Positions 2,701 to 36,403 of a stretch of DNA of 60,666 bases are shown here, piece after piece. The notes below the pieces were generated by a model. That model was not told the origin of the DNA. It made no database searches and worked only from the letters and a program-made list of their open reading frames with translations. Each line of letters opens with the position of its first letter. Position 1 is the stretch's first letter. Position numbers and translations under genes: made by a program. This stretch comes from Comamonadaceae bacterium. Its GTDB lineage: Bacteria > Pseudomonadota > Gammaproteobacteria > Burkholderiales > Burkholderiaceae_C. The DNA lies in contig CANGDZ010000013.1 of NCBI GenBank assembly GCA_947452785.1, forward strand, positions 1 to 60,666, read 5' to 3'.

Positions 2701-3921
2701 TCAGCGCAAAGCACGCAGCAGTTTTTGTCCAGCGCGGCCGTTGACCTCATGGCCTAAGCGGGTCTGTTCGGCCTTGATGGCGATGCGGCTTTTCTCACCC
2801 ATCATGCCGTCAATCTCTCCAATGTCGTGGCCGCGGCCACTCAGCAGAGTTTGAATTTCCCGCCGCTGCGCGCGCGACAGACCGGCGTCGTCGGTGGGCC
2901 ATGGCGTGGCAAACGGCTTCGCACCGCGCAGCCGGTCGGACAAATGGGCAATCGCCAGGCCATAGCTTTCTGCTGCGTTGTAGCTGTAAATAGAATCGAA
3001 GTTGCGGAACACCAAAAACGCGGGGCCTTTAGCTCCGGCGGGGGTCATTAGCCCTGCCGGGTTGCCATTCAAGGGCAGGGCGCTGCCGTCCACCTGCGTC
3101 AGACCGCGCGCGGCCCACTCGCTCAACGCTCGTTTGGTTTTGCGGCCTTCGCCAGACACATCGGTGCCAGGCGGCAGCTTGACTTCAAAGCCCCAGACCT
3201 GTGCTGGGTTCCAGCCGGCTTTGCTTAAAAAATAGGCGGTGGAGGCCAGCGCGTCCGGCACGCTGTCCATCAGGTCGCGGCGGCCGTCCCCATCAAAGTC
3301 TTGGGCCAGGCGCTCAAAGGTGGTGGGCATGAACTGGGTGTGGCCAAACGCACCGGCCCAAGAACCGACCAGCCGCTCGGGCGCGATGTGCCCGGCTTGC
3401 AAGATGCGCAGCGTGGCATAGAACTCGCCGCGGAAATAAGTTTGCCGGTTGCCAAAGCAAGACAGGGTGCCCAGCGCTTGGGTCAATGGGTATTTGCCAA
3501 AGGTTTGGCCAAAGTTGCTTTCCACGCCCCATACCGCGACCACCGTGGCCGGGTCCACGCCATATTGGGCTGCAACTTTGTCCAGCAGCTCTCGGTACTT
3601 GGCCAGTTGTGCCTGGCCTTCGGCGACCCGCTCGTCGTCCACCAAGGCGGCCAGGTAGTCCCAAATCGGCATGCGGAATTCAGGCTGGTTGTTCATCTTT
3701 TCCAAGATGCCCATGTCGGGATTCAAGCCTTGGGTGAAGCGGGCAAAGCTGTCTTCTTTCACGCCCGCCGCTTTGGCTGGACTGCGCAAGCCAGACAGAC
3801 ATTGCTGGAATTCGGTTTGGCCCCAGGCCGGGGAGGCCAGTGCCGCCGAGATAAGGACAAGCGGCAAGCAGGTGCGAACACTGAAAAAACGGGGAGGGCG
3901 TGGGGCAGAGTGGCAAGACAT
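2701..3921 (-). CDS. Lytic murein transglycosylase, MltB family
   Basis: 406 aa. Periplasmic enzyme cleaving the MurNAc-GlcNAc bond of peptidoglycan to give 1,6-anhydro ends. Residues 1-34 form a signal peptide ending at SPAWGQ. The SLT_2/MltB catalytic domain follows, with the putative catalytic Glu134 in VAVWGVESNFGQTFG and the conserved GAFGHTQFMPTTF. A peptidoglycan-binding helical domain (about 345-406, SRAQRREIQTLLSGRG) ends the protein. I chose the ATG at 3921: the frame stays open far upstream, but that extension would run through lemA on the other strand and lacks a signal peptide at its start. Confidence 0.9.
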   Translation of the reverse strand: MSCHSAPRPPRFFSVRTCLPLVLISAALASPAWGQTEFQQCLSGLRSPAKAAGVKEDSFARFTQGLNPDMGILEKMNNQPEFRMPIWDYLAALVDDERVAEGQAQLAKYRELLDKVAAQYGVDPATVVAVWGVESNFGQTFGKYPLTQALGTLSCFGNRQTYFRGEFYATLRILQAGHIAPERLVGSWAGAFGHTQFMPTTFERLAQDFDGDGRRDLMDSVPDALASTAYFLSKAGWNPAQVWGFEVKLPPGTDVSGEGRKTKRALSEWAARGLTQVDGSALPLNGNPAGLMTPAGAKGPAFLVFRNFDSIYSYNAAESYGLAIAHLSDRLRGAKPFATPWPTDDAGLSRAQRREIQTLLSGRGHDIGEIDGMMGEKSRIAIKAEQTRLGHEVNGRAGQKLLRALR

Positions 3922-4032: not shown

Positions 4033-4632
4033 ATGTCTCAGATATTGTCGCGTTGGATGATGGCCTTGCTGGTGGTGACTGCCTTGAGTGGCTGCGGCTA
4101 CAACGACTTTCAAAAGCTCGATGAAGAGACCCGTGGAGCCTGGAGCGAGGTGCTCAACCAGTACCAGCGCCGAGCCGATTTGGTGCCCAACTTGGTGGCC
4201 ACCGTCAAGGGCGAGGCTTCTTTTGAGCAAGACACCTTGACCCAGGTGATCGAGGCCCGCGCCAAGGCCACCGCCATGCAGGTGACGCCCGAGACCTTGA
4301 ACAACCCAGAAGCGTTCAAGAAGTTTCAAGAAGTTCAAGGCCAATTGGGTTCTGCGCTCAGCCGCTTGATGGTGGTGTCTGAACAGTACCCCAGCTTGAA
4401 GGCGAACCAAGCTTTCAGTGATTTGCGCGTGCAACTTGAAGGCACCGAAAACCGCATCACCGTGGCGCGCAACCGCTACATCAAAGCCGTGCAGGCCTAC
4501 AACATCTTGGTGCGCAGTTTGCCCAGCAATCTGACGGCCATGGTCATGGGCTACAAGGCCAAAGAGGGCTTCACTGTGGCGAACGAAGCGCAAATTTCGC
4601 TACCGCCCACCGTGGACTTCAACAAGAAGTAA
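4033..4632 (+). CDS. lemA: LemA family lipoprotein
   Basis: 199 aa, starting at the ATG at 4033 with AAAGGA 7 bp upstream; a longer GTG-initiated reading is possible but would bury the signal peptide. The signal ends in a lipobox, ALSGC, with Cys21 as the lipidated residue. The rest is the long helical LemA fold, including the family stretch AWSEVLNQYQRRADLVPNLV. LemA proteins are membrane-attached and of unclear role; they usually sit next to TPM-domain genes, as here. It is the first gene of a three-gene operon and diverges from the transglycosylase gene. Confidence 0.92.
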   Translation: MSQILSRWMMALLVVTALSGCGYNDFQKLDEETRGAWSEVLNQYQRRADLVPNLVATVKGEASFEQDTLTQVIEARAKATAMQVTPETLNNPEAFKKFQEVQGQLGSALSRLMVVSEQYPSLKANQAFSDLRVQLEGTENRITVARNRYIKAVQAYNILVRSLPSNLTAMVMGYKAKEGFTVANEAQISLPPTVDFNKK

Positions 4633-8743: not shown

Positions 8744-9940
8744 TCAGTAAAACGCCTGCAAGCCAGTTTGCGCGCGGCCCAAAATCAGGGCGTGCACATC
8801 GTGCGTGCCTTCGTAGGTGTTCACGGTTTCCAAGTTGATCATGTGGCGAATCACGTGGTATTCATCGTGAATGCCGTTGCCACCATGCATGTCGCGCGCC
8901 ATGCGGGCCACATCCAGCGCTTTGCCGCAGCTGTTGCGCTTGATCATGCTGATCATCTCGGGCACCGCTTTGCCTTCGTCCATCAAGCGGCCCACGCGCA
9001 GGCAGCCTTGCAGGCCCAAAGTGATCTCGGTTTGCATGTCGGCCAGCTTCTTTTGAATCAGCTGGTTTTGCGCCAGTGGGCGGCCAAATTGCACGCGGTC
9101 CATGGTGTACTGGCGGGCGCGGAACCAGCAGTCTTCGGCCGCGCCCAAAGCGCCCCAAGCGATACCGTAGCGGGCTTTGTTCAGGCAGCCGAACGGGCCT
9201 TTGAGGCCGTTGACGTTGGGCAGAAGGTTTTCGGCAGGCACAAACACCTCGTCCATCACGATTTCGCCGGTGATGCTGGCGCGCAAACTCATCTTGCCTT
9301 CGATTTTCGGTGCTGTGAGGCCCTTCATGCCTTTTTCCAAAACAAAGCCGTGAATGGCTTCTTGGCCGCCCACCGAGCCGTCGGAGTTTTCGAGTTTGGC
9401 CCAGACCACAAACACGTCGGCGATCGGCGCGTTGGTGATCCACATCTTGGCGCCATTGAGGATGAAGCCCCCATCGACCGGCTTGGCGCGGGTCAGCATG
9501 CTGGCCGGGTCAGAGCCGTGGTTAGGTTCGGTCAAGCCAAAACAGCCCACCCATTCGCCGGTGGCCAGTTTAGGCAGGTATTTTTGGCGCTGCGCCTCGT
9601 TGCCGTATTCGTTGATGGGGTGCATCACCAGGGAGCTTTGCACGCTGATGGCACTGCGGTAGCCGCTGTCTACGCGCTCGACCTCGCGGGCGATCAGGCC
9701 ATAGGCCACGTAGCTCAGGCCGGCGCAGCCGTAACCTTCAATGGTGGAGCCCAAAAAGCCCATGGCGCCGGCTTCGGTCATGATCTCGCGGTCAAACTTT
9801 TCGTGGCGCGCGGCCATCAGCACGCGGGTCTGCAGGCGCTCTTGGCAAAAAGTGTGGGCGGCTTCGACGATGGCGCGCTCGTCGTCACCGAGTTGCTCGT
9901 TCAGCAACATGGCGTCATTCCATTGGAAGTTCGGTTTCAT
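8744..9940 (-). CDS. gcdH: Glutaryl-CoA dehydrogenase
   Basis: 398 aa. FAD enzyme oxidising and decarboxylating glutaryl-CoA to crotonyl-CoA in lysine, tryptophan and some aromatic degradation routes. It is a full acyl-CoA dehydrogenase with the family signatures [13 protein letters not shown] and [17 protein letters not shown], and the catalytic base Glu377 in [17 protein letters not shown]. The last segment is distinctive for glutaryl-CoA dehydrogenases. I chose the ATG at 9940, which has AGGAG at good spacing; 15 further upstream codons are open. It diverges from a LysR gene, as gcdH commonly does. Confidence 0.9.
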
Positions 9941-23353: not shown

Positions 23354-24256
23354 TTAGGCGTCAGGAACCATGTCGCTGATCTTGCGCATATCAGCCACCG
23401 AATGGTTTTCACTGGTGCTGGTAATGGCGTCCGCGTACCGCATGTCGAGTGCAATTTGCTCAGGCCCATAAGCGTGGTTGGCATACACCTGAGCGCCCAA
23501 GGCCGGGTCGTGTGCGGTGATGCTGACCAGCAAACGCGTGCCAAGAGCGTGCAGGGCTGACGGATCCAAGTTGCGCAGATCGACCAGTGGGCTGTCGTCG
23601 GTGAGCTCGTGAGTCAATGTCCAGGTCAATGGAAAAAATGGCATGTCGGAGCGGGTCAGTGGCAAGTCAACCATGCTGCGCATTTTTTGCCCATCTGCCG
23701 CCGTCTCGTTGATGAAAGTGGTCACCCGCACGTTCGCATCGTTGAGTGCATTCATGCGGCCGTTGCCAATGCGAATCATCAAGCGCGGCACCCCCGAGCG
23801 GCGAACCACCACCGCTTGATGGGCAAACAGCAGTTTGGCTTTGGGCTTGGAAAAACGCACAAACACCAAACCGGTCATGGTAGCGGTGAGCAACATGCCC
23901 ACAAAAACCTCGATAGCCGATACCGTGTGACTGTAGGTCGTGATGGGGGCCATATTGCCGTAGCCCACCGTGGCCAAGGTTTCAATGCTGAAAAAAAACG
24001 CGTCCCAAAATGAGTCGGAAGGCATGTTGCTCACCGAGCCCGGAACGGCGTAATACAGCAGGGCAAAGCACGAGTTGATCACGGCATACAACATGAACAA
24101 ACCCGCAAAGAACTGCGGCCAACTCATGGTCAAAGCCAGGTGGTACGGGTCTTTGAAATCGAACTCACGCACGCCCACTTTTTCAAGCTGCAACGTGCCC
24201 GAGCCAGACGTGGAATGCGTCATGGGTTTGATGGACGATTTATTGTATTTTTTCAT
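23354..24256 (-). CDS. KirBac-type inward-rectifier potassium channel
   Basis: 300 aa. Two membrane helices flank a pore loop: the slide helix and outer helix lie at about residues 36-70, the selectivity filter TVGYG at 96-100 (ETLATVGYGNMAPI), and the inner helix at about 110-135. The cytoplasmic immunoglobulin-like Kir domain follows (KAKLLFAHQAVVVRRSGVPR; TWTLTHELTDDSPL). Length and order match KirBac proteins. The first 11 residues could be skipped by an internal ATG. It diverges from a VOC gene. Confidence 0.93.
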   Translation of the reverse strand: MKKYNKSSIKPMTHSTSGSGTLQLEKVGVREFDFKDPYHLALTMSWPQFFAGLFMLYAVINSCFALLYYAVPGSVSNMPSDSFWDAFFFSIETLATVGYGNMAPITTYSHTVSAIEVFVGMLLTATMTGLVFVRFSKPKAKLLFAHQAVVVRRSGVPRLMIRIGNGRMNALNDANVRVTTFINETAADGQKMRSMVDLPLTRSDMPFFPLTWTLTHELTDDSPLVDLRNLDPSALHALGTRLLVSITAHDPALGAQVYANHAYGPEQIALDMRYADAITSTSENHSVADMRKISDMVPDA

Positions 24257-29065: not shown

Positions 29066-29079
29066 TTGACTTAAGTCAA
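29066..29079. promoter_or_regulatory. FNR/ANR-like binding site
   Basis: The perfect palindrome TTGACTTAAGTCAA has the TTGAY-N4-RTCAA form of CRP/FNR-family sites. A -41.5 placement predicts a transcript start near 29114, with GAGAAT at 29102-29107 as a -10. This would make the channel-phaC-fabI-pta-ackA operon responsive to low oxygen. Inference from motif and context. Confidence 0.5.
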
Positions 29080-29140: not shown

Positions 29141-30784
29141 TTGCCACACACCACCACCTCTTCGCAGCCGCGCGCAACAGGCCTGTTGCCGCTGGTCCAT
29201 CAATGGCTGTTTGACCCGACATTTGAAAAAGGCTTTCACCGCGAGGTGGAGAACGGTGTGGGCTGGCTGATCATCATCAGTGTGGCAGCCATCATTGCTG
29301 AGCACATCGAGCCGATTTACGCTGGACGAGAGCTGCTGTTTCACATTTTTGACCTAGCCTGTATAGGCGTGTTCACGCTGGAATACGGCCTGCGTCTGGC
29401 CACGGCCCCTTGGGAGGCAGAATACGCCGGGCAGCGTTTTGCGCGTTGGCGTCATGCGGTGAGTTTTTATGCCTGTGTGGATTTGCTGGCCATTGCGCCG
29501 TTTTATTTCTCTGGTTTTGTGGCCATGGATGTGGAAATGCTGCGCGCCCTGCGGCTGCTGCGCTTGATGCGGATTCTCAAACTGTCGCGCTACATGGTGC
29601 CGGCTTGGAAAGACTTTCAGCTGATGAACCGGGGGCGCAGTGTGCGCGCCAAGTTGCATGCCTTGTTGGAGCCCACGGGCCACTCGGGCCAGCTGCATGT
29701 CTATGTGGACAACTTCATCATGTTCTGGGTGCTCTTGTCGATCATCGCGGTGGTGATGGAGTCGGTGACATCGGTGCATGCGGTGTTGTCGTTTGAATTT
29801 TTTGTGATCGATGTGCTGGCCTTCAGCATCTTCACGGTGGAGTATCTGGCGCGCTTGTACGCCGCAGCAGAAAACCCGGCCTACAAGAAATCGTTTTGGC
29901 CACGCTGGTTGCATTTCAAAGCGGGGCCGAACATCATCGACCTGCTGGCGATCTTGCCTTTCTTGCTGGAGCACTTCCTGCCCTTTGCACTGGACCTGCG
30001 TTTCTTGCGGGTCTTCCGGTTGATGCGTTTGCTCAAGCTCACGCGCTACACCTCGGCCACCAAGACCTTGTTTCAAGTGGTGCGGCGTGAATGGCAGGTG
30101 ATCTTTGCATCGGTGTTTGTCATGCTGCTGCTGGTAGTGCTAACGGCAAGCCTGGGCTATTTGTTCGAGCACGATGCCCAGCCCGACAAATTTGAAAACA
30201 TCCCGCAGTCCATTTACTGGGCGGTGGTCACGCTGGCTTCGGTGGGCTATGGCGACATCTCGCCCATCACGCCCATGGGCCGAGCCCTCACGGTGGTGCT
30301 GGCCTTGGTGGGCATCGGTATTTTTGCGATCCCTGCGGGTCTGCTGGCCTCGGCGTTCACTGATCAATTGCGCATTGACCGCGAAGACTTCAAGCACAAG
30401 CTGCTGCTGGCGTTTGAGAAGGGTGAACTGGACACTAAGGCGCGCGCCATGATCGCCGAAGAGTCTGAGCGTTTGCATTTGTCATTGGATGACATCAAAC
30501 GGCTCATGCAAGAAGCGCGAGAAGCCATCAAGGCCAAGCAGCGCGAAGAGCAGCATGCGACTTCTGTGGTGATCTTAGACCCCAAGGTCAATCCTGACAT
30601 GGCGGCACGTCAATGGCGGCTGCTGGTGTCGCAGTTGCAAATGCTGAGTGAAGCCACGGGCCCTGCGCTGCTGGCCAGCCAGCTTGAAACGCATGAGCAA
30701 ACGCATGAGCCACAGACGGAGCTTTGCAGGCGCGTGCTGACCGCTGTGCAACCGGCGGCGCAAACCACATCGTCATTGCCATGA
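29141..30784 (+). CDS. Ion channel with two voltage-sensor modules and one pore
   Basis: Up to 547 aa; the only upstream start is TTG at 29141, without a clear ribosome-binding site, so the exact start is unsure. Residues about 38-150 form a complete S1-S4 module whose S4 carries R135, R138, R141, R144, K147 and R150. No pore follows it. A second S1-S4 (about 188-302) repeats the same charge ladder (R287, R290, R293, R296, K299, R302) and is followed by S5, the K+ filter SVGYGD (367-372), S6 and a roughly 140-residue helical cytoplasmic tail. The architecture is 4TM plus 6TM. It heads the putative FNR-controlled operon. Confidence 0.88.
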   Translation: MPHTTTSSQPRATGLLPLVHQWLFDPTFEKGFHREVENGVGWLIIISVAAIIAEHIEPIYAGRELLFHIFDLACIGVFTLEYGLRLATAPWEAEYAGQRFARWRHAVSFYACVDLLAIAPFYFSGFVAMDVEMLRALRLLRLMRILKLSRYMVPAWKDFQLMNRGRSVRAKLHALLEPTGHSGQLHVYVDNFIMFWVLLSIIAVVMESVTSVHAVLSFEFFVIDVLAFSIFTVEYLARLYAAAENPAYKKSFWPRWLHFKAGPNIIDLLAILPFLLEHFLPFALDLRFLRVFRLMRLLKLTRYTSATKTLFQVVRREWQVIFASVFVMLLLVVLTASLGYLFEHDAQPDKFENIPQSIYWAVVTLASVGYGDISPITPMGRALTVVLALVGIGIFAIPAGLLASAFTDQLRIDREDFKHKLLLAFEKGELDTKARAMIAEESERLHLSLDDIKRLMQEAREAIKAKQREEQHATSVVILDPKVNPDMAARQWRLLVSQLQMLSEATGPALLASQLETHEQTHEPQTELCRRVLTAVQPAAQTTSSLP

Positions 30785-30835
30785 CACGCTGTGCTGCAAT
30801 AGTGACTTTTATTTTTCATTCTCTTGGACTTTGAC

Positions 30836-32599
30836 ATGACATCGACTTCCCTTGACCGTGCCGCTTCTCCCGAAGCCACGATGCGTGAAGCAGCCCAGCA
30901 ACTGGACCAGACGCTGCACAGCCTGATGGCCAAATCCAATATGGGGCTCTCGCCCATCGCCATGACCTTGGCCTACATGGACTGGGCCATGCACCTGGGC
31001 TCCTCGCCTGGTCAGCAAATGATCCATGCGCAGCAATCGATGGCCGACCTGCAGCACAAGCTGCAAAGCTCTGGCGAAGAAACAGACACGCGCTTTCGCG
31101 ATGCCTCCTGGCAGCACTGGCCCTACAACGCCCTCAAAGAAAGCTACAAAACCCAGGCGGACCATTGGATGCGCAGCACCCAGGTCGAAGGCATGTCGGA
31201 CCATCACCGGCACATGGTGAGTTTTTTCACGCGGCAATGGCTCGATGCCCTGTCGCCCTCCAACTGGCCGCTGAGCAATCCTGAAGTGATGCGCAAAGCC
31301 ATGGAGACGCAGGGCGAGAGCTTGCAAAAAGGCTGGAGCCACTACAAGGCGGATATGCTCCAAGCGCGCGGTGCAGAAGGTGCAAATGCCGCAGAACTGG
31401 ACCAGCCCTTGCCCTTCGTGGTGGGCCAGGATGTGGCCACCACGCCCGGCAAAGTCGTGTTTCGCAACCGATTGGTCGAGCTGATTCAGTACACGCCGAC
31501 CACCGAAAAAGTGCATGCCGAGCCGGTGCTGATCGTGCCTTCGTGCATCATGAAGTACTACATTTTGGATTTGTCACCGCACAACTCCATGGTGCGCTAC
31601 CTGGTCGGCCAGGGCCACACGGTCTTTATGATCTCTTGGCGCAACCCCGATGCCTCAGACCGCGACTTGGGGCTGGACGATTACTTGCGCATGGGCGTTA
31701 TGGAGGCCATGGCCGCCGTCAAAAAGCAAACCAGTGAACCCCGACTGCACGCCATGGGCTACTGCCTGGGCGGCACGTTCTTGTCCATCGTTGCGGCGGT
31801 GCTGGGGCGCAAATCAAGCCAACGGGGCCGTCGCACCGGCGCCGATATGCCCGCGTTGGCCAGCGTGACCTTGCTGGCCGCGCAGACGGACTTTTCAGAA
31901 CCCGGTGAATTGGGCCTTTTCATTGACGATGACCAACTGAAAACCTTGCGCGAAGACATGGCGCAAAAAGGCTATCTGTCAGGCAAGCAAATGGCCGGGG
32001 CTTTTCAGTTTCTGAATGCGCGCGACCTGATCTGGTCGCGCAGCACCCACCGCTATTTGCTGGGTGAAGAAGAGGTCGGCATGGACATGATGAGCTGGAA
32101 CGCCGATTTGACCCGCTTGCCTGAGCGCATGCACAACGAATACCTGACCCGCTTGTTCCTGCACGATGCGCTGGCTAAAGGCCATTACCAGTTTGAAGGC
32201 GAAGGCCTGGCGCTGATGGACATCAAGGCCCCCATGCTGGTGGTGGGCACGGTGCGCGACCATGTCTCGCCCTGGCGCTCGGTCTACAAAATTCATTTGA
32301 CCACCGACACCGACACCACCTTTATTTTGGCTGCAGGTGGCCACAACGCGGGCATCGTGTCTGAGCCCGGTCACGCCAAGCGCAGTTACCAAATGCACCA
32401 TGTCAGCCCGGGTTACACCTGGATCGAGCCCGAAGCCTGGGTCAAAAAGGCGTCACTGCATGAAGGCTCCTGGTGGGTGCCCATGCAAGACTGGCTGGTC
32501 AAACACTCCGGTCCTCTTGTCAAAGCCCGCCCCATTCCTGCCAAAAATGCGCTGTGCGATGCGCCTGGCGATTACGTGAAAGTTCGTTATGCGGATTGA
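30836..32599 (+). CDS. phaC: Polyhydroxyalkanoate synthase, class I-type
   Basis: 587 aa from the ATG at 30836. Polymerises (R)-3-hydroxyacyl-CoA to PHA. It has an alpha/beta-hydrolase core with the lipase-like box GYCLGG (nucleophile Cys310), the family block YYILDLSPHNSMVRYLV and HTVFMISWRNPD, an Asp in VGTVRDHVSPW and the final His in AAGGHNAGIV. The N-terminal 130 residues differ from canonical PhaC1, as in the second or stress-linked PhaC paralogues. No phaA or phaB is nearby. The end overlaps the next gene by 11 bp. Confidence 0.9.
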   Translation: MTSTSLDRAASPEATMREAAQQLDQTLHSLMAKSNMGLSPIAMTLAYMDWAMHLGSSPGQQMIHAQQSMADLQHKLQSSGEETDTRFRDASWQHWPYNALKESYKTQADHWMRSTQVEGMSDHHRHMVSFFTRQWLDALSPSNWPLSNPEVMRKAMETQGESLQKGWSHYKADMLQARGAEGANAAELDQPLPFVVGQDVATTPGKVVFRNRLVELIQYTPTTEKVHAEPVLIVPSCIMKYYILDLSPHNSMVRYLVGQGHTVFMISWRNPDASDRDLGLDDYLRMGVMEAMAAVKKQTSEPRLHAMGYCLGGTFLSIVAAVLGRKSSQRGRRTGADMPALASVTLLAAQTDFSEPGELGLFIDDDQLKTLREDMAQKGYLSGKQMAGAFQFLNARDLIWSRSTHRYLLGEEEVGMDMMSWNADLTRLPERMHNEYLTRLFLHDALAKGHYQFEGEGLALMDIKAPMLVVGTVRDHVSPWRSVYKIHLTTDTDTTFILAAGGHNAGIVSEPGHAKRSYQMHHVSPGYTWIEPEAWVKKASLHEGSWWVPMQDWLVKHSGPLVKARPIPAKNALCDAPGDYVKVRYAD

Positions 32600-32969
32600 T
32601 GCCCTCTCCATCCAAGAATTACCCCAAGGCCCTTTGCACCGCATGGAGGCTTCATTTGAAGCCCTGAATGCGCGCATTGCGCGTCTGGCCATCAGCCTGG
32701 GCGTGCCGCTGGACCATGAAGAACATATCCACGACATTCTCAAATCTCCCCAAGCGACCTACTTCGCCGATCCCCATCACAAGCGGTACTGGATCGAGTT
32801 GCGCGGCCTTTTGGTGCTGCGTTACGGTATGGAAAAGTCTGCTGCAGAACAAGTCGGCGTGGAAACCCTCAAACAAATCCTGATCGATGCTGAAGAGCAC
32901 CTGGCCATCGAGGGCTTCAAGCCCGGAGCTGACGGCCTGTTCATCAACGCACTCTTCACGAAAGACTGA
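32589..32969 (+). CDS. Conserved-looking hypothetical protein between phaC and fabI
   Basis: 126 aa, soluble and mostly helical by composition, no signal or membrane segment. It reads as a real gene: it starts inside the end of phaC, ends 4 bp before fabI, and its codon use resembles its neighbours. Notable stretches are GVPLDHEEHIHDILKSPQ and YWIELRGLLVLRYGMEKSA. I do not recognise the family. Its position within a PHA/acetate operon suggests a role tied to granules or to this low-oxygen response. Confidence 0.75.
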   Translation: MRIDALSIQELPQGPLHRMEASFEALNARIARLAISLGVPLDHEEHIHDILKSPQATYFADPHHKRYWIELRGLLVLRYGMEKSAAEQVGVETLKQILIDAEEHLAIEGFKPGADGLFINALFTKD

Positions 32970-32973
32970 CCCG

Positions 32974-33750
32974 ATGCCGAGCCATTTACTGACCAGCTTG
33001 GCGGGCAAAAAAGGATTGATTCTGGGCTTGGCCAATGAGCACAGTATTGCCTGGGGCTGCACGCGTCTGGCGCATGCCATGGGCGCGCAGTTGCTCACGA
33101 CTTGCTTGAATGAAAAATCGCTGCGCTTTGTCGAACCCTTGACCCAGCCTCTGGGCATTCCCTTGGTCGCTTGCAATGTCGAAGAAGCCGGCAGTCTGGA
33201 ACAAGTGGTGGCTCAAGCCGTGGCCCAAATGGGCGCGCTGGATTTCGTCATTCACTCGATTGCCTGGGCGCCGCTGGAAGACCTGCACGGCCAGGTGATT
33301 GACAGCTCTAGCCTGGGTTTTGCCCGCGCCATGGAAGTGTCTTGCCACTCGTTTGCTATCTTGGCCAAGTTGTGCGCGCCACACATGACGCAAGGCGGCA
33401 GCATGCTGACCATGAGTTACCTGGGCGCCGACGAAGCTGTACCGCACTATGGACTGATGGGGCCGGTCAAGGCCGCGCTCGAATCGCTGGTGCGCTACAT
33501 GGCCCTGGAGTTGGGGGCGCGCAACATCCGTGTGCATGCGGTCTCGCCGGGGCCGATTTTGACGCGCGCCGCCTCTGGCATTGAGGCGTTTGACGATTTG
33601 ATGCAAAACGCCATGCACAAAGCCCCTCTGAGCCGCCTGGTGACCTTGGATGAAATCGCACAACTGTGTGCATTTTTGTGCTCAGATGCTTCTTCGGGCA
33701 TGACCGGTCAGACGCTGTATGTCGATGCCGGTTGCCACGCGGTAGCCTGA
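32974..33750 (+). CDS. fabI: Enoyl-[ACP] reductase, FabI type
   Basis: 258 aa from the ATG at 32974. Reduces enoyl-ACP or enoyl-CoA double bonds with NAD(P)H. SDR fold with the FabI-type N-terminus GLILGLANEHSIAWG and catalytic region SYLGADEAVPHYGLMGPVKA, holding the two Tyr and the Lys expected of FabI. Being between phaC and a MaoC-Pta gene, it is likely a second, specialised FabI and not the housekeeping copy. A role in redox balancing or hydroxyacyl/enoyl-CoA interconversion is inferred. Confidence 0.87.
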   Translation: MPSHLLTSLAGKKGLILGLANEHSIAWGCTRLAHAMGAQLLTTCLNEKSLRFVEPLTQPLGIPLVACNVEEAGSLEQVVAQAVAQMGALDFVIHSIAWAPLEDLHGQVIDSSSLGFARAMEVSCHSFAILAKLCAPHMTQGGSMLTMSYLGADEAVPHYGLMGPVKAALESLVRYMALELGARNIRVHAVSPGPILTRAASGIEAFDDLMQNAMHKAPLSRLVTLDEIAQLCAFLCSDASSGMTGQTLYVDAGCHAVA

Positions 33751-33765
33751 CCCCCACCTCAAGAG

Positions 33766-35184
33766 ATGCTTCAAGTGACTGAAACCGACCTGATAGAAAA
33801 CCTGACCTACGACGAACTCAGCGTGGGGCAAACTGCCCAACTGATTCGCACCTTGACACTGGCCGACATCCAGGCCTTTGCGGCCGTTTCTGGCGACACC
33901 AACCCCGCGCACCTGGACCCTGTGTATGCCCACGACACCTTGTTCCATGGCGTGATTGCCCACGGCATGTGGGGCGGCGCCTTGATCTCGGCTTTGCTGG
34001 GCACGCAGTTCCCTGGTCCTGGCACCATTTACCTGCAGCAAGATTTGCACTTTTCACGCCCCGTGCGCATTGGCGATACCTTGACCGTCACCGTGACCAT
34101 CACTGTTTTGGACGACGCCAAAAAGAAGGTGGATCTGGACTGCGAAGTCATCAACCAGCACGCCGAACGTGTGCTGTATGGCTCGGCCCGTGTGCTGGCG
34201 CCGACACAAAAGGTACGCCGTCCGCGCTCGACGGTGCCGCATATCCAGCTGTTCGACCCCGAAGCCCGATTCAAGGCCTTGCTGGCCCGAGCAGAAGGCA
34301 TGGAGGCGGTACGCTGCGCCGTGGTCCACCCTTGTGACGCCGAGTCTTTGAGTGGCGCACTGGACGCTGCGCGTTATGGCTTGATCATTCCGGTGCTGAT
34401 TGGCCCCACCGCCAAGATCGACAAAGTCGCCTTAGACGCCGGCTTGGACCTGAGCGGCGTGGAGCGGGTCGCTGTGCCGCACAGCCATGCCGCCGCTGAC
34501 GTGGCCGCCGACATGGCGGCCAAAGGGCAGGTGGAGATCCTCATGAAGGGCAGCTTGCACACCGACGAGTTGCTGCATGCAGTGTTGGCCCAGCCCAGCT
34601 TGCGCACCGGCCGGCGCATGTCGCATGTATTTCGCTTTGATGTACCGATGTACCCCAAGCCCTTGATGGTCACCGATGCGGCCTTGAACATCCGGCCCAG
34701 CCTGATGGACAAGGTCGACATTGTGCAAAATGCCATTGACTTGGCGCACATCTTGAACATTGAGCTTCCGAAGGTGGCTATCTTGGCGGCGGTGGAAACG
34801 GTCAACCCGGACATGCCGTCCACACTGGACGCAGCGGCCTTGTGCAAGATGGCCGATCGGGGCCAGATTCAGGGCGGGCTGTTGGATGGCCCCTTAGCGT
34901 TTGACAATGCGATTTCCACGCACGCGGCGCAGATCAAGCACATCGTCTCCCAAGTCGCGGGTGATGCCGACATCTTGGCCGTACCTGACTTGGAATCTGG
35001 CAACATCCTGGCCAAACAGTTGGAATATTTGGCGGGCGCTACCGGTGCTGGTTTGGTGCTCGGTGCCCGGGTGCCGATTGCCTTGACCAGTCGCGCCGAC
35101 AGCGCCAACACCCGCGTGGCCTCGGCCTTGCTGGCGTTGCTGGCGGCGCACCACGCCAGGCGTCTGGCGGCTGCACCTCTCTGA
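33766..35184 (+). CDS. MaoC hydratase-phosphate acetyltransferase fusion
   Basis: 472 aa. N-terminal MaoC-like (R)-specific enoyl-CoA hydratase domain (about 1-150) with the hotdog catalytic stretch AAVSGDTNPAHLDPVYA. The C-terminal Pta/Ptb-type phosphotransacylase domain (about 165-470) includes GRRMSHVFRFDVP, PDMPSTLDAAALCKMADRGQ and GPLAFDNAIS. The fusion could feed (R)-3-hydroxyacyl-CoA to PhaC and make acyl phosphate for AckA, which follows. This two-domain form is known in beta-proteobacteria; the exact acyl specificity is uncertain. Confidence 0.88.
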   Translation: MLQVTETDLIENLTYDELSVGQTAQLIRTLTLADIQAFAAVSGDTNPAHLDPVYAHDTLFHGVIAHGMWGGALISALLGTQFPGPGTIYLQQDLHFSRPVRIGDTLTVTVTITVLDDAKKKVDLDCEVINQHAERVLYGSARVLAPTQKVRRPRSTVPHIQLFDPEARFKALLARAEGMEAVRCAVVHPCDAESLSGALDAARYGLIIPVLIGPTAKIDKVALDAGLDLSGVERVAVPHSHAAADVAADMAAKGQVEILMKGSLHTDELLHAVLAQPSLRTGRRMSHVFRFDVPMYPKPLMVTDAALNIRPSLMDKVDIVQNAIDLAHILNIELPKVAILAAVETVNPDMPSTLDAAALCKMADRGQIQGGLLDGPLAFDNAISTHAAQIKHIVSQVAGDADILAVPDLESGNILAKQLEYLAGATGAGLVLGARVPIALTSRADSANTRVASALLALLAAHHARRLAAAPL

Positions 35185-35215: not shown

Positions 35216-36403
35216 ATGGCCATTCTTGCTGTTAACGCCGGTTCCTCCTCGTTGAAGTTCTCCTTGCATCCTTTGCAAGAAGGGCTGGTTCAGCCCAGTG
35301 TGCTGACGGGCAGCATTCAAGGCTTGGAGCCGCAAGGCACGCCTGAAATTGCTTGGCGTGCGCAGGGCGCTTTGATGAAGCAGTCCTTGCCCAAGGGTGA
35401 GGGCGATGCTTTCGAGCGCGCGCTGCAAGAATTGCGCAGCCTGCTCGCGCGCCTTCCCCATCTGCCGGCCATTCAAGCCATTGCCCACCGCGTGGTGCAT
35501 GGCGGTGAGCGTTACACCCGCAGCGTGCGCGTCACGTCCGAGGTATTGCACGACCTGGCCCAACTCAACTCTTTGGCACCGCTCCATCAGCCGCACAACC
35601 TGGCCGGCATTGAGGCCTTTCAGCAAGCCTTTCCTGATCTTCCGCAGATGGCTTGCTTTGACACGGCGTTTCACAACACCGTGCCGCAAGAGGAGCGGCA
35701 ATTCGCCTTGCCTCAAGCACTCACGCAGCAAGGCGTGCGGCGCTACGGTTTTCATGGTCTGTCGTACCAGTACATCATGGGCGTGCTGCAAGAGCGCACA
35801 CCTCGTGCCGAGCACAGAGTGCTGATGGCGCACCTGGGCAATGGCGCCAGCTTGTGCGCCGCGCGAGGCGGGCACAGTTGCGCCACCACCATGGGCTTTT
35901 CGGCGCTCGACGGTTTGATCATGGGCACCCGCAGCGGCTCGCTGGATGCTGGCGTGCTGTTGTACCTTATGGAGCAAGGCTGGAGCCACGACCGCTTGCA
36001 AAATCTGCTCTACAAACAATCGGGCTTGCTCGGCGTCTCGGGCATCTCGGCCGACATGCGCAAGCTGCGCGCCGACCCCTCAATGCAGGCGCAATGGGCG
36101 ATTGACCTGTTCACGCATCGCGTGGTGCGCGAGAGTGGCGCCTTGGTGGCCTGTCTGCAAGGCCTGGATGTGCTGGCCTTCAGCGGTGGCATTGGCGAGC
36201 ACGATGCGCAACTGCGCTTGCAGGTGTGCCAGGCGCTGCAATGGATGGGCGTGCAGATCGACCCGGTGCGCAATTTGCAGGCCTGCGGCGATGACATCTG
36301 GTCCATCCATGCCGTGGGCAGCATCGTAGAGATTTGGGTCATCCCCACCGACGAAGGCCGCGTGGCCGCCCGTGAGGCGGCCGCATTGTTGCGCCTGGCT
36401 TAA
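35216..36403 (+). CDS. ackA: Acetate kinase
   Basis: 395 aa. Forms ATP and acetate from acetyl phosphate. Full-length ASKHA-fold enzyme with NAGSSSLKFSL at the N-terminus, HRVVHGGERYTRSV, FDTAFHNTVP, HLGNGASLCA and FSGGIGEH. With the upstream Pta domain it completes substrate-level phosphorylation from acetyl-CoA, useful when respiration is limited. Last gene of the plus-strand operon that starts at 29141; bclA converges from the other side. Confidence 0.95.
   Translation: MAILAVNAGSSSLKFSLHPLQEGLVQPSVLTGSIQGLEPQGTPEIAWRAQGALMKQSLPKGEGDAFERALQELRSLLARLPHLPAIQAIAHRVVHGGERYTRSVRVTSEVLHDLAQLNSLAPLHQPHNLAGIEAFQQAFPDLPQMACFDTAFHNTVPQEERQFALPQALTQQGVRRYGFHGLSYQYIMGVLQERTPRAEHRVLMAHLGNGASLCAARGGHSCATTMGFSALDGLIMGTRSGSLDAGVLLYLMEQGWSHDRLQNLLYKQSGLLGVSGISADMRKLRADPSMQAQWAIDLFTHRVVRESGALVACLQGLDVLAFSGGIGEHDAQLRLQVCQALQWMGVQIDPVRNLQACGDDIWSIHAVGSIVEIWVIPTDEGRVAAREAAALLRLA

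Follow-up and report, generated by a model that had tools for sequence, protein, structure and literature searches.

Voltage-gated potassium channels of the Kv type are built from subunits that carry one S1–S4 module each, as in the solved structures of Kv4.2, Kv2.1 and KCNQ2, and to our knowledge all known voltage-gated channels have one sensor per pore-forming quarter. The ordinary bacterial 6TM Kv channels (annotated as 'ion transporter', NF040645) have the same pore and sensor fold, and their physiological role is, as far as we know, mostly open. Other arrangements exist: two-pore channels (TPCs) have two voltage-sensor modules per chain with a pore after each, and form dimers; Hv1 and the voltage-sensing phosphatases have a sensor without a pore domain of its own; BacNaV channels have a LESW-type filter.

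Here we describe a gene from a 60,666-base stretch of DNA (the window) whose product fits none of these descriptions: its parts are those of Kv channels, its arrangement is not. The chain has two modules where a Kv subunit has one, and the first of them (module 1) is absent from the ordinary bacterial 6TM channels. It shares the two sensors with TPCs but has one pore per two modules; module 1, like the Hv1 sensor, lacks its own pore domain but shares its chain with another sensor and a K+ pore; and the filter is SVGYGD, unlike that of BacNaV. No description of a two-sensor, single-pore subunit was found in the searched listings of open-licence PubMed Central text.

Two voltage-sensor modules and one pore in a single chain

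The protein has the sequence features of a voltage-gated K+ channel, namely S1–S4 segments with regularly spaced Arg/Lys in S4 and acidic partners in S2 and S3, and S5, a pore helix and S6 with a filter of the T/S-V-G-Y-G type (Table 1), while its score against NCBIfam NF040645 (K_channel_Meth) is below the cut-off (56 versus 300 bits). Both S4 ladders have identical charge spacing, and S5-P-S6 follows module 2 only. Pfam Ion_trans matches two stretches of the full protein, and module 1 by itself (E 2.1e-12); Ion_trans_2 matches a single stretch, and the model contains no S5 or S6 after module 1. Further residues of the sensors are equivalent in modules 1 and 2, respectively: the S1 Glu (E54 and E207), the S2 Phe (F78 and F231), the S2 Glu (E81 and E234) and the S3 Asp (D114 and D267). 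The modules align in BLASTP over 130 aa with an E-value of 2e-23 (35% identity); judged by sequence, they are homologous and do not resemble each other by chance. An earlier note on this DNA had described two S1–S4 modules with the same ladder spacing, and S5, SVGYGD and S6 after the second only; its coordinates, frame, length and charges are all borne out. It had also set the protein apart from ordinary 6TM channels and from two-pore channels, and rightly so, for the chain has neither the one sensor of a standard 6TM Kv subunit nor the two pore domains of a TPC.

Table 1. Features of the double-sensor channel gene and of the unit around it (positions in the window)
Feature	Position	Strand	Remarks
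FNR/ANR-type box (putative)	29066..29079	+	starts 75 bp before channel start codon
double-voltage-sensor K+ channel gene	29141..30784	+	TTG start, 547 aa; Pfam Ion_trans E 3.1e-40, Ion_trans_2 E 9.2e-18
voltage-sensor module 1 (residues 33-150)	29237..29590	+	
module 1 S4 charge ladder R135, R138, R141, R144, K147, R150	29543..29590	+	
inter-module linker (151-184)	29591..29692	+	presumably cytosolic; from model and alignment
voltage-sensor module 2 (185-303)	29693..30049	+	
module 2 S4 charge ladder R287, R290, R293, R296, K299, R302	29999..30046	+	
S5, pore helix, S6 transmembrane part (318-410)	30092..30370	+	Pfam Ion_trans_2
filter SVGYGD (residues 367-372)	30239-30256	+	
helical C-terminal region (411-547)	30371..30781	+	presumably cytosolic; AF2 helices 432-444, 449-475, 485-506, 508-521, 526-536
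phaC, PHA synthase	30836..32599	+	ATG 51 bp after channel stop; TTG at 30824 also possible; PhaC_N 1.2e-57
126-aa ORF	32589..32969	+	no Pfam/NCBIfam-type family match; kept in L010 at 90%
enoyl-ACP reductase, FabI type	32887..33750	+	start uncertain; NF005717 above cut-off
bifunctional enoyl-CoA hydratase / phosphate acetyltransferase	33766..35184	+	NF006045 above cut-off
acetate/propionate kinase	35216..36403	+	TIGR00016 above cut-off; Acetate_kinase 6.8e-104

In the AF2 model module 1 comprises S1 (33–54), S2 (64–87), S3 (109–126) and S4 (131–162), with pLDDT of 86–97 across the block, so that residues 33–150 are predicted to fold as the S1–S4 module that the note had proposed for residues 38–150. 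Since a structure search with the whole model was filled by module 2, module 1 was also predicted and searched alone; it folded with a pLDDT of 90.3 and a pTM of 0.81, and all 50 listed matches are channels with voltage sensors. A profile of module 1 finds the sensors of Kv4, Nav, Cav and KCNQ (best E 8.5e-15). Its S4 extends as one long helix, and the linker leads into the start of module 2, ahead of S1, rather than into S5. The full model has a pTM of 0.69, and its filter stretch (366–373) a pLDDT below 50, so the relative placement of the two modules is not settled by it. The models are of the monomer, four of which would assemble into the channel.

A conserved and patchily distributed family

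A homologue search (E ≤ 1e-3; 7,997 candidates scored) returned 4,390 hits, and the best 120 listed are 480–621 aa long, each covering at least 86% of the query; several homologues have a Met start aligned with the TTG of the window gene (e.g. P0008). A true start near residue 185, the weak point to which the earlier note had itself drawn attention, is at odds with these proteins. The alignment consists of 209 rows, of which 121 (P0001–P0121) were unselected for two sensors and 88 are locus ORFs selected for two sensor hits; over residues 19–410, 206 of the 209 rows are distinct, the window protein having entered twice (P0001, P0002) before that step.

In all 206 distinct sequences R141, R144, K147 and R150 of the module 1 ladder are present; R138 is Arg in 204 and Lys in two, and R135 is found in 199. 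No substitution occurs at D114 (206 of 206) or at E81 (205 and one gap), while E54 is kept in 204 with two gaps and F78 in 204 with one Leu and one gap. All six charges of the module 2 ladder are identical throughout, and exceptions to the invariance of gating residues (R135, R138, F78, E207) concern at most seven of the 206 rows each. The 204 rows that span both modules all keep the last five module 1 charges, and 197 keep all six. N163, R169 and G183 of the linker are invariant, as are S, G, Y, G and D of the filter, whose V is replaced by I in one sequence (V in 205). The extra module, whose conservation the note had wanted tested, is thus conserved in a family. As a whole, conservation is slightly lower in module 1 than in module 2 (mean column majority 0.64 versus 0.70). 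Between the window protein and its closest relative (L010) dN/dS is 0.038 in module 1 and 0.037 in module 2, against 0 in the pore and 0.133 in the C-terminus, so in this pair both modules are under near-equal purifying selection; in four other pairs it is 0.13–0.25 for module 1, and 0.19–0.21 for module 2 in the three with computable dS. Alignment and predicted fold together show two homologous S1–S4 modules, each with a full charge-transfer set, a single SVGYGD pore and a conserved linker; the tetramer, its current and the coupling of module 1 are what we infer from them.

The genome scan kept at least 78 loci, from the best 80 of 243 relatives, and all 78 listed matches begin at query residue 1–25 (the gene of L029, cut by a contig end, on its own aligns from residue 102). 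The listed loci are labelled Burkholderiales or Betaproteobacteria with few exceptions, namely uncultured bacterium (L025, L034), uncultured proteobacterium (L044, L085) or Methylococcaceae (L040). Three carriers, Limnohabitans sp. Jir61, Limnohabitans sp. 2KL-17 and Polynucleobacter sp. UB-Piko-W3, are not labelled MAG, so an assembly error is unlikely to be the source of the architecture. Among same-family genomes 12 of 399 were matched (E ≤ 1e-60), with the match starting in the first 20 residues in nine, own genome included; double-sensor channels form a family with a patchy occurrence in Burkholderiales (9 of 399 same-family genomes), and a second one is encoded on another contig (C45) of the own genome. 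Evenly drawn samples of the order and of the phylum gave matches in 17 of 120 (E ≤ 1e-20) and 27 of 349 genomes (E ≤ 1e-40), respectively, where module 1 was covered only by the matches of the own genome and all others start at residue 130 or later. A second sensor was found neither in the 16 other matched order genomes, all of which have one sensor per gene, nor in 18 of the 26 other matched phylum genomes by inspection of frames; the remaining eight have open frames of 297–363 aa, too short for two sensors, and the longer open frames among the phylum matches hide none. When 398 phylum genomes were searched with another query, one more carrier came to light in another family of the same order (G872), which has a 543-aa two-sensor ORF. 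The genome samples were drawn within Pseudomonadota, beyond which plasmid and genome-contig scans were made. 6TM relatives in this phylum match the second half of the window protein at 32–41%.

By identity to the window protein we distinguish subfamily 1 (at least 53.5%; 22 listed loci and the window, 23 in total) and subfamily 2 (∼44–51%, including the C45 copy of the own genome); one exception, the frame at 4184–5803 of L028, has an identity in the subfamily-2 range and groups with subfamily 1 in a 53-row tree of module 2 and the pore. This frame, with the filter SIGYGD, is the second of a tandem pair of double-sensor frames with overlapping ends (L028, 2547–5803). In L091 (4050–5880) a double-sensor gene is split across two frames by a frameshift or sequencing error. 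A diverged two-sensor relative is found on a plasmid of Gemmobacter aquarius (Rhodobacterales; L122, 3707–5182), annotated as 'ion transporter'; ladder charges are lost from both of its S4s (by eye), and it is partly decayed.

Gene neighbourhoods and a candidate low-oxygen setting

The channel gene of the window stands before genes of PHA and acetate metabolism (Table 1); the phaC product matches TIGR01838 with an E-value of 1.2e-154, yet below its cut-off. The stretch between the channel and phaC has a promoter-like site at 30776–30803 and nothing that resembles a terminator, so a shared transcript is likely, not certain. The order channel, phaC, 126-aa ORF, fabI, hydratase/pta, ackA is retained in L010. 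L023 and L024 have phaC-fabI-hydratase/pta-ackA-channel, and L018, L019 and L022 have hydratase/pta-ackA-channel; the stop-to-stop frames of ackA and the channel overlap in L018, L019, L022 and L023. In L018 and L019 (∼2910–3320), after an FNR-type box, an apparent fabI fragment (by eye) takes the place that phaC has in L023, as though phaC had dropped out of the operon. About 5 kb upstream of the window's double-sensor channel, on the minus strand (23354–24256), there is a smaller channel-like gene (300 aa, filter TVGYGN), which gave 30% to the channel's pore in the whole-genome search and presumably resembles channels of the 2TM inward-rectifier type.

The sequence TTGACTTAAGTCAA upstream of the channel, by its consensus a putative FNR/ANR-type box, is the sole match to TTGAYNNNNRTCAA in the 60,666 bases, with 0.11 expected. 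L010, L012, L021, L027 and L028 have an exact box at −69 to −106, counted from estimated start codons; in L023 and L024 one stands at the head of the phaC operon, and in L018 and L019 one occupies the corresponding place. Altogether, such a box heads the unit in 10 of the 23 listed subfamily-1 loci, and 13 are without an exact one. The 25 matches in 1.106 Mb of locus sequence (some sites duplicated) correspond to ∼0.06 expected in 23 stretches of 110 bases. A candidate FNR-type box near the promoter, as in an FNR-regulated unit, is present by its consensus and recurs in relatives. One paper names the Herbaspirillum seropedicae operon dksA-phaC2-fabI-Hsero_2407 as a direct Fnr1 target (PMC5934665), and another on micro-oxia in B. 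cenocepacia cites a low-oxygen-activated locus (PMC3759415).

From the channel's place at the head of a probable low-oxygen PHA/acetate operon the earlier note had suggested that membrane potential is linked to energy stress. The link to the operon holds in part. The operon stands beside the channel at 7 of the 23 listed subfamily-1 loci (window included), in two gene orders, and together with the recurring boxes and the phaC2-fabI operon named as Fnr1-regulated in PMC5934665, this recurrence lends the link partial support. It is not general, though: the channel is at the operon head only in the window and L010, and no such operon is visible at 16 of the 23, at five of which (L015, L020, L021, L027, L029) one flank is too short to exclude it. 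For the window channel a low-oxygen setting is a likely candidate, judging by the boxes and gene order.

The neighbours of subfamily 2 are different. A single-TM protein (by eye) is encoded directly before the channel at 55 of the 63 listed subfamily-2 loci with at least 700 bp upstream and at none of the 19 listed subfamily-1 loci; L029, whose gene is truncated at the contig end, was left out of this count, as were L093 and L094, whose contigs are already represented by L030 and L014. No Pfam family (E ≤ 0.1) matched the two members of this protein that were searched, and no NCBIfam family the one searched. Downstream, a 6TM channel with the filter TSG[YFW]GN (6A) is found at 13 of 49 listed subfamily-2 loci with at least 1,200 bp, and 6A together with a second 6TM channel, 6B, at 11 of the 44 whose sequence extends 2,300 bp or more, the 6B pattern (I[SA]GWGN) missing VSGWGN forms that occur; such odd-filter channels are directly downstream at none of 20 listed subfamily-1 loci. 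The six-charge S4 is retained in 6A (19 sequences) and 6B (12). A close 6A relative (at least 74%) occurs in four of 398 same-family genomes and adjoins a subfamily-2 channel in all four. A DG...E...LS stretch resembling the C-terminal region of the double-sensor channel is also seen in neighbouring 6TM channels (by eye). Exact FNR-type boxes are found within 1.3 kb before the subfamily-2 channel at 6 of 63 listed loci, at about −680 to −696 in L008, L073, L076, L077 and L078 and at −454 in L056.

On C45 of the own genome (L008, 4802–8948) the single-TM protein and the double-sensor channel are followed by 6TM channels with TSGYGN and ISGWGN filters, which recur in other genomes; an FNR-type box (8990–9003) lies just before the single-TM gene. 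Limnohabitans sp. Jir61 (L014, 1–8271) has a still larger cluster: besides a subfamily-2 channel and two odd-filter 6TM channels it encodes a DUF4337 protein, a Kv-type channel (opposite strand) and a sodium-channel-like protein with an Ion_trans match and a LESW-type filter. The stop-to-stop frame of a subfamily-1 double-sensor channel abuts or overlaps the sodium-channel-like gene. Similar channel clusters are present at L016, L017 and L030 (Pfam was run on L014 only).

Origin and role of module 1

In the 53-row tree the branches next to the double-sensor channels are those of the 6TM relatives L089 and L090 (99/92). L088, where a search for module 1 was negative, falls within subfamily 2 (clade 100/99, its own position weak); double-sensor rows as one group without L088 are rejected (p 0.001). 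With L089 and L090 outside, L088 inside and 6TM outgroups only, module 1 was, on these sequences, probably gained once and lost at least once, and L088 seems to have lost it. No decayed module 1 was detected by tblastn (E <0.05) upstream of L088, L089 or L090 beyond their own sensor. This apparent loss and the lost charges of the Gemmobacter relative indicate that module 1 is not essential everywhere. A sensor tree of 92 rows unites the module 1 sequences in a single clade (100/99) separate from module 2, which groups with L089 and L090 (100/97).

The existence of such 6TM near relatives might suggest that the window gene, too, codes for a 6TM channel of the ordinary kind, its start called too far upstream and the sequence before the real start non-coding or decayed. 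These relatives do not imply a wrong start here, and the idea is hardly credible: the best 120 listed homologues of the 4,390 are all long, module 1 is under purifying selection, and its invariant residues and confidently predicted fold rule the idea out. As to where module 1 came from, its 35% identity to module 2 would suit a duplication of module 2 within the gene once its lineage had parted from the 6TM near relatives. We regard this as improbable, since the AU test (137 columns) rejects a clade of modules 1 and 2 that leaves these relatives out (p 0.026). In the same test neither a clade of both modules with L089/L090, as expected of an older duplication, nor one that unites module 1 and the 6A/6B sensors is rejected (p 0.30 for each), so an older duplication and a fusion with the sensor of another channel are both possible. 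A standalone sensor gene upstream of a 6TM channel was tried as a source and rejected: in two genomes (G724, G674) the alignment seemed to run through a stop, yet a single sensor is present in each of L115, L116, L126 and L128.

We think it fairly probable that the protein is a Kv-type, K+-selective channel of four identical 10TM subunits, with eight sensors around its one pore, in which module 2 gates and module 1 is a tethered sensor, and which is made with the PHA/acetate enzymes when oxygen is short. Module 2 would open the gate via its S4–S5 helix, as in Kv channels. Having no S5 of its own and a long S4 helix joined to module 2 by the linker, module 1 should act as a tethered second sensor, which would move with voltage and bias module 2 or the gate allosterically through the conserved linker; two sensors per subunit could give a steeper or a two-threshold response. 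Short oxygen would, through the FNR-type box, lead to production of the channel together with enzymes for PHA and for acetate and ATP, and a shift in membrane potential would then let K+ pass, keeping the potential and K+ steady or restoring them once respiration fails. At low oxygen acetate kinase would make ATP, PHA would take up reducing power and the voltage-controlled K+ leak could protect or restore the potential.

It is rather unlikely, although not negligibly so, that module 1 is a real sensor fold that does not drive the pore, serving as an assembly anchor or binding partners such as the single-TM protein or the 6TM channels, with module 2 alone setting voltage dependence. Its attachment to the pre-S1 side of module 2 and not to S5 would suit this; in two-pore channels a single active sensor of the two can suffice, and close partners are conserved in subfamily 2. 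However, a pure scaffold would not have to retain all gating charges, and E81, D114, R141, R144, K147 and R150 are unsubstituted in the 206 sequences, while the window's own subfamily has neither the single-TM partner (0 of 19 listed loci) nor odd-filter 6TM channels directly downstream (0 of 20). In short, the invariance of the charges argues against a pure anchor, and the missing S4–S5 link of module 1 against direct pulling. Isolated voltage sensors can conduct protons, and module 1 might accordingly be an ion pathway of its own (for protons or cations), fused Hv1-like to a K+ channel; this is very improbable, because the hallmarks of Hv1, an aspartate in S1 and an Asn in S4, are absent, S1 having Glu and S4 continuing with Lys/Arg as in Kv channels.

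Beyond the tethered-sensor channel preferred here, a bolder picture is possible, if doubtful: eight working sensors per pore would form two coupled layers, subfamily 2 would belong to a larger electrical module with the single-TM partner and perhaps co-assembling TSGYGN and ISGWGN 6TM subunits, and clusters of the Limnohabitans type, with both subfamilies and a sodium-channel-like gene, would look as if set for shaped electrical signals at low oxygen. In either case, two intact sensors with one pore segment raise the question of how many sensors a gate can use. The family may provide a natural test of steepness against sensor number, and of the influence of a sensor without an S4–S5 link. The protein is compact and present in named strains not labelled MAG, and so is amenable to testing. 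It would also link a voltage-gated K+ channel of bacteria to low oxygen and PHA/acetate metabolism as a candidate condition.
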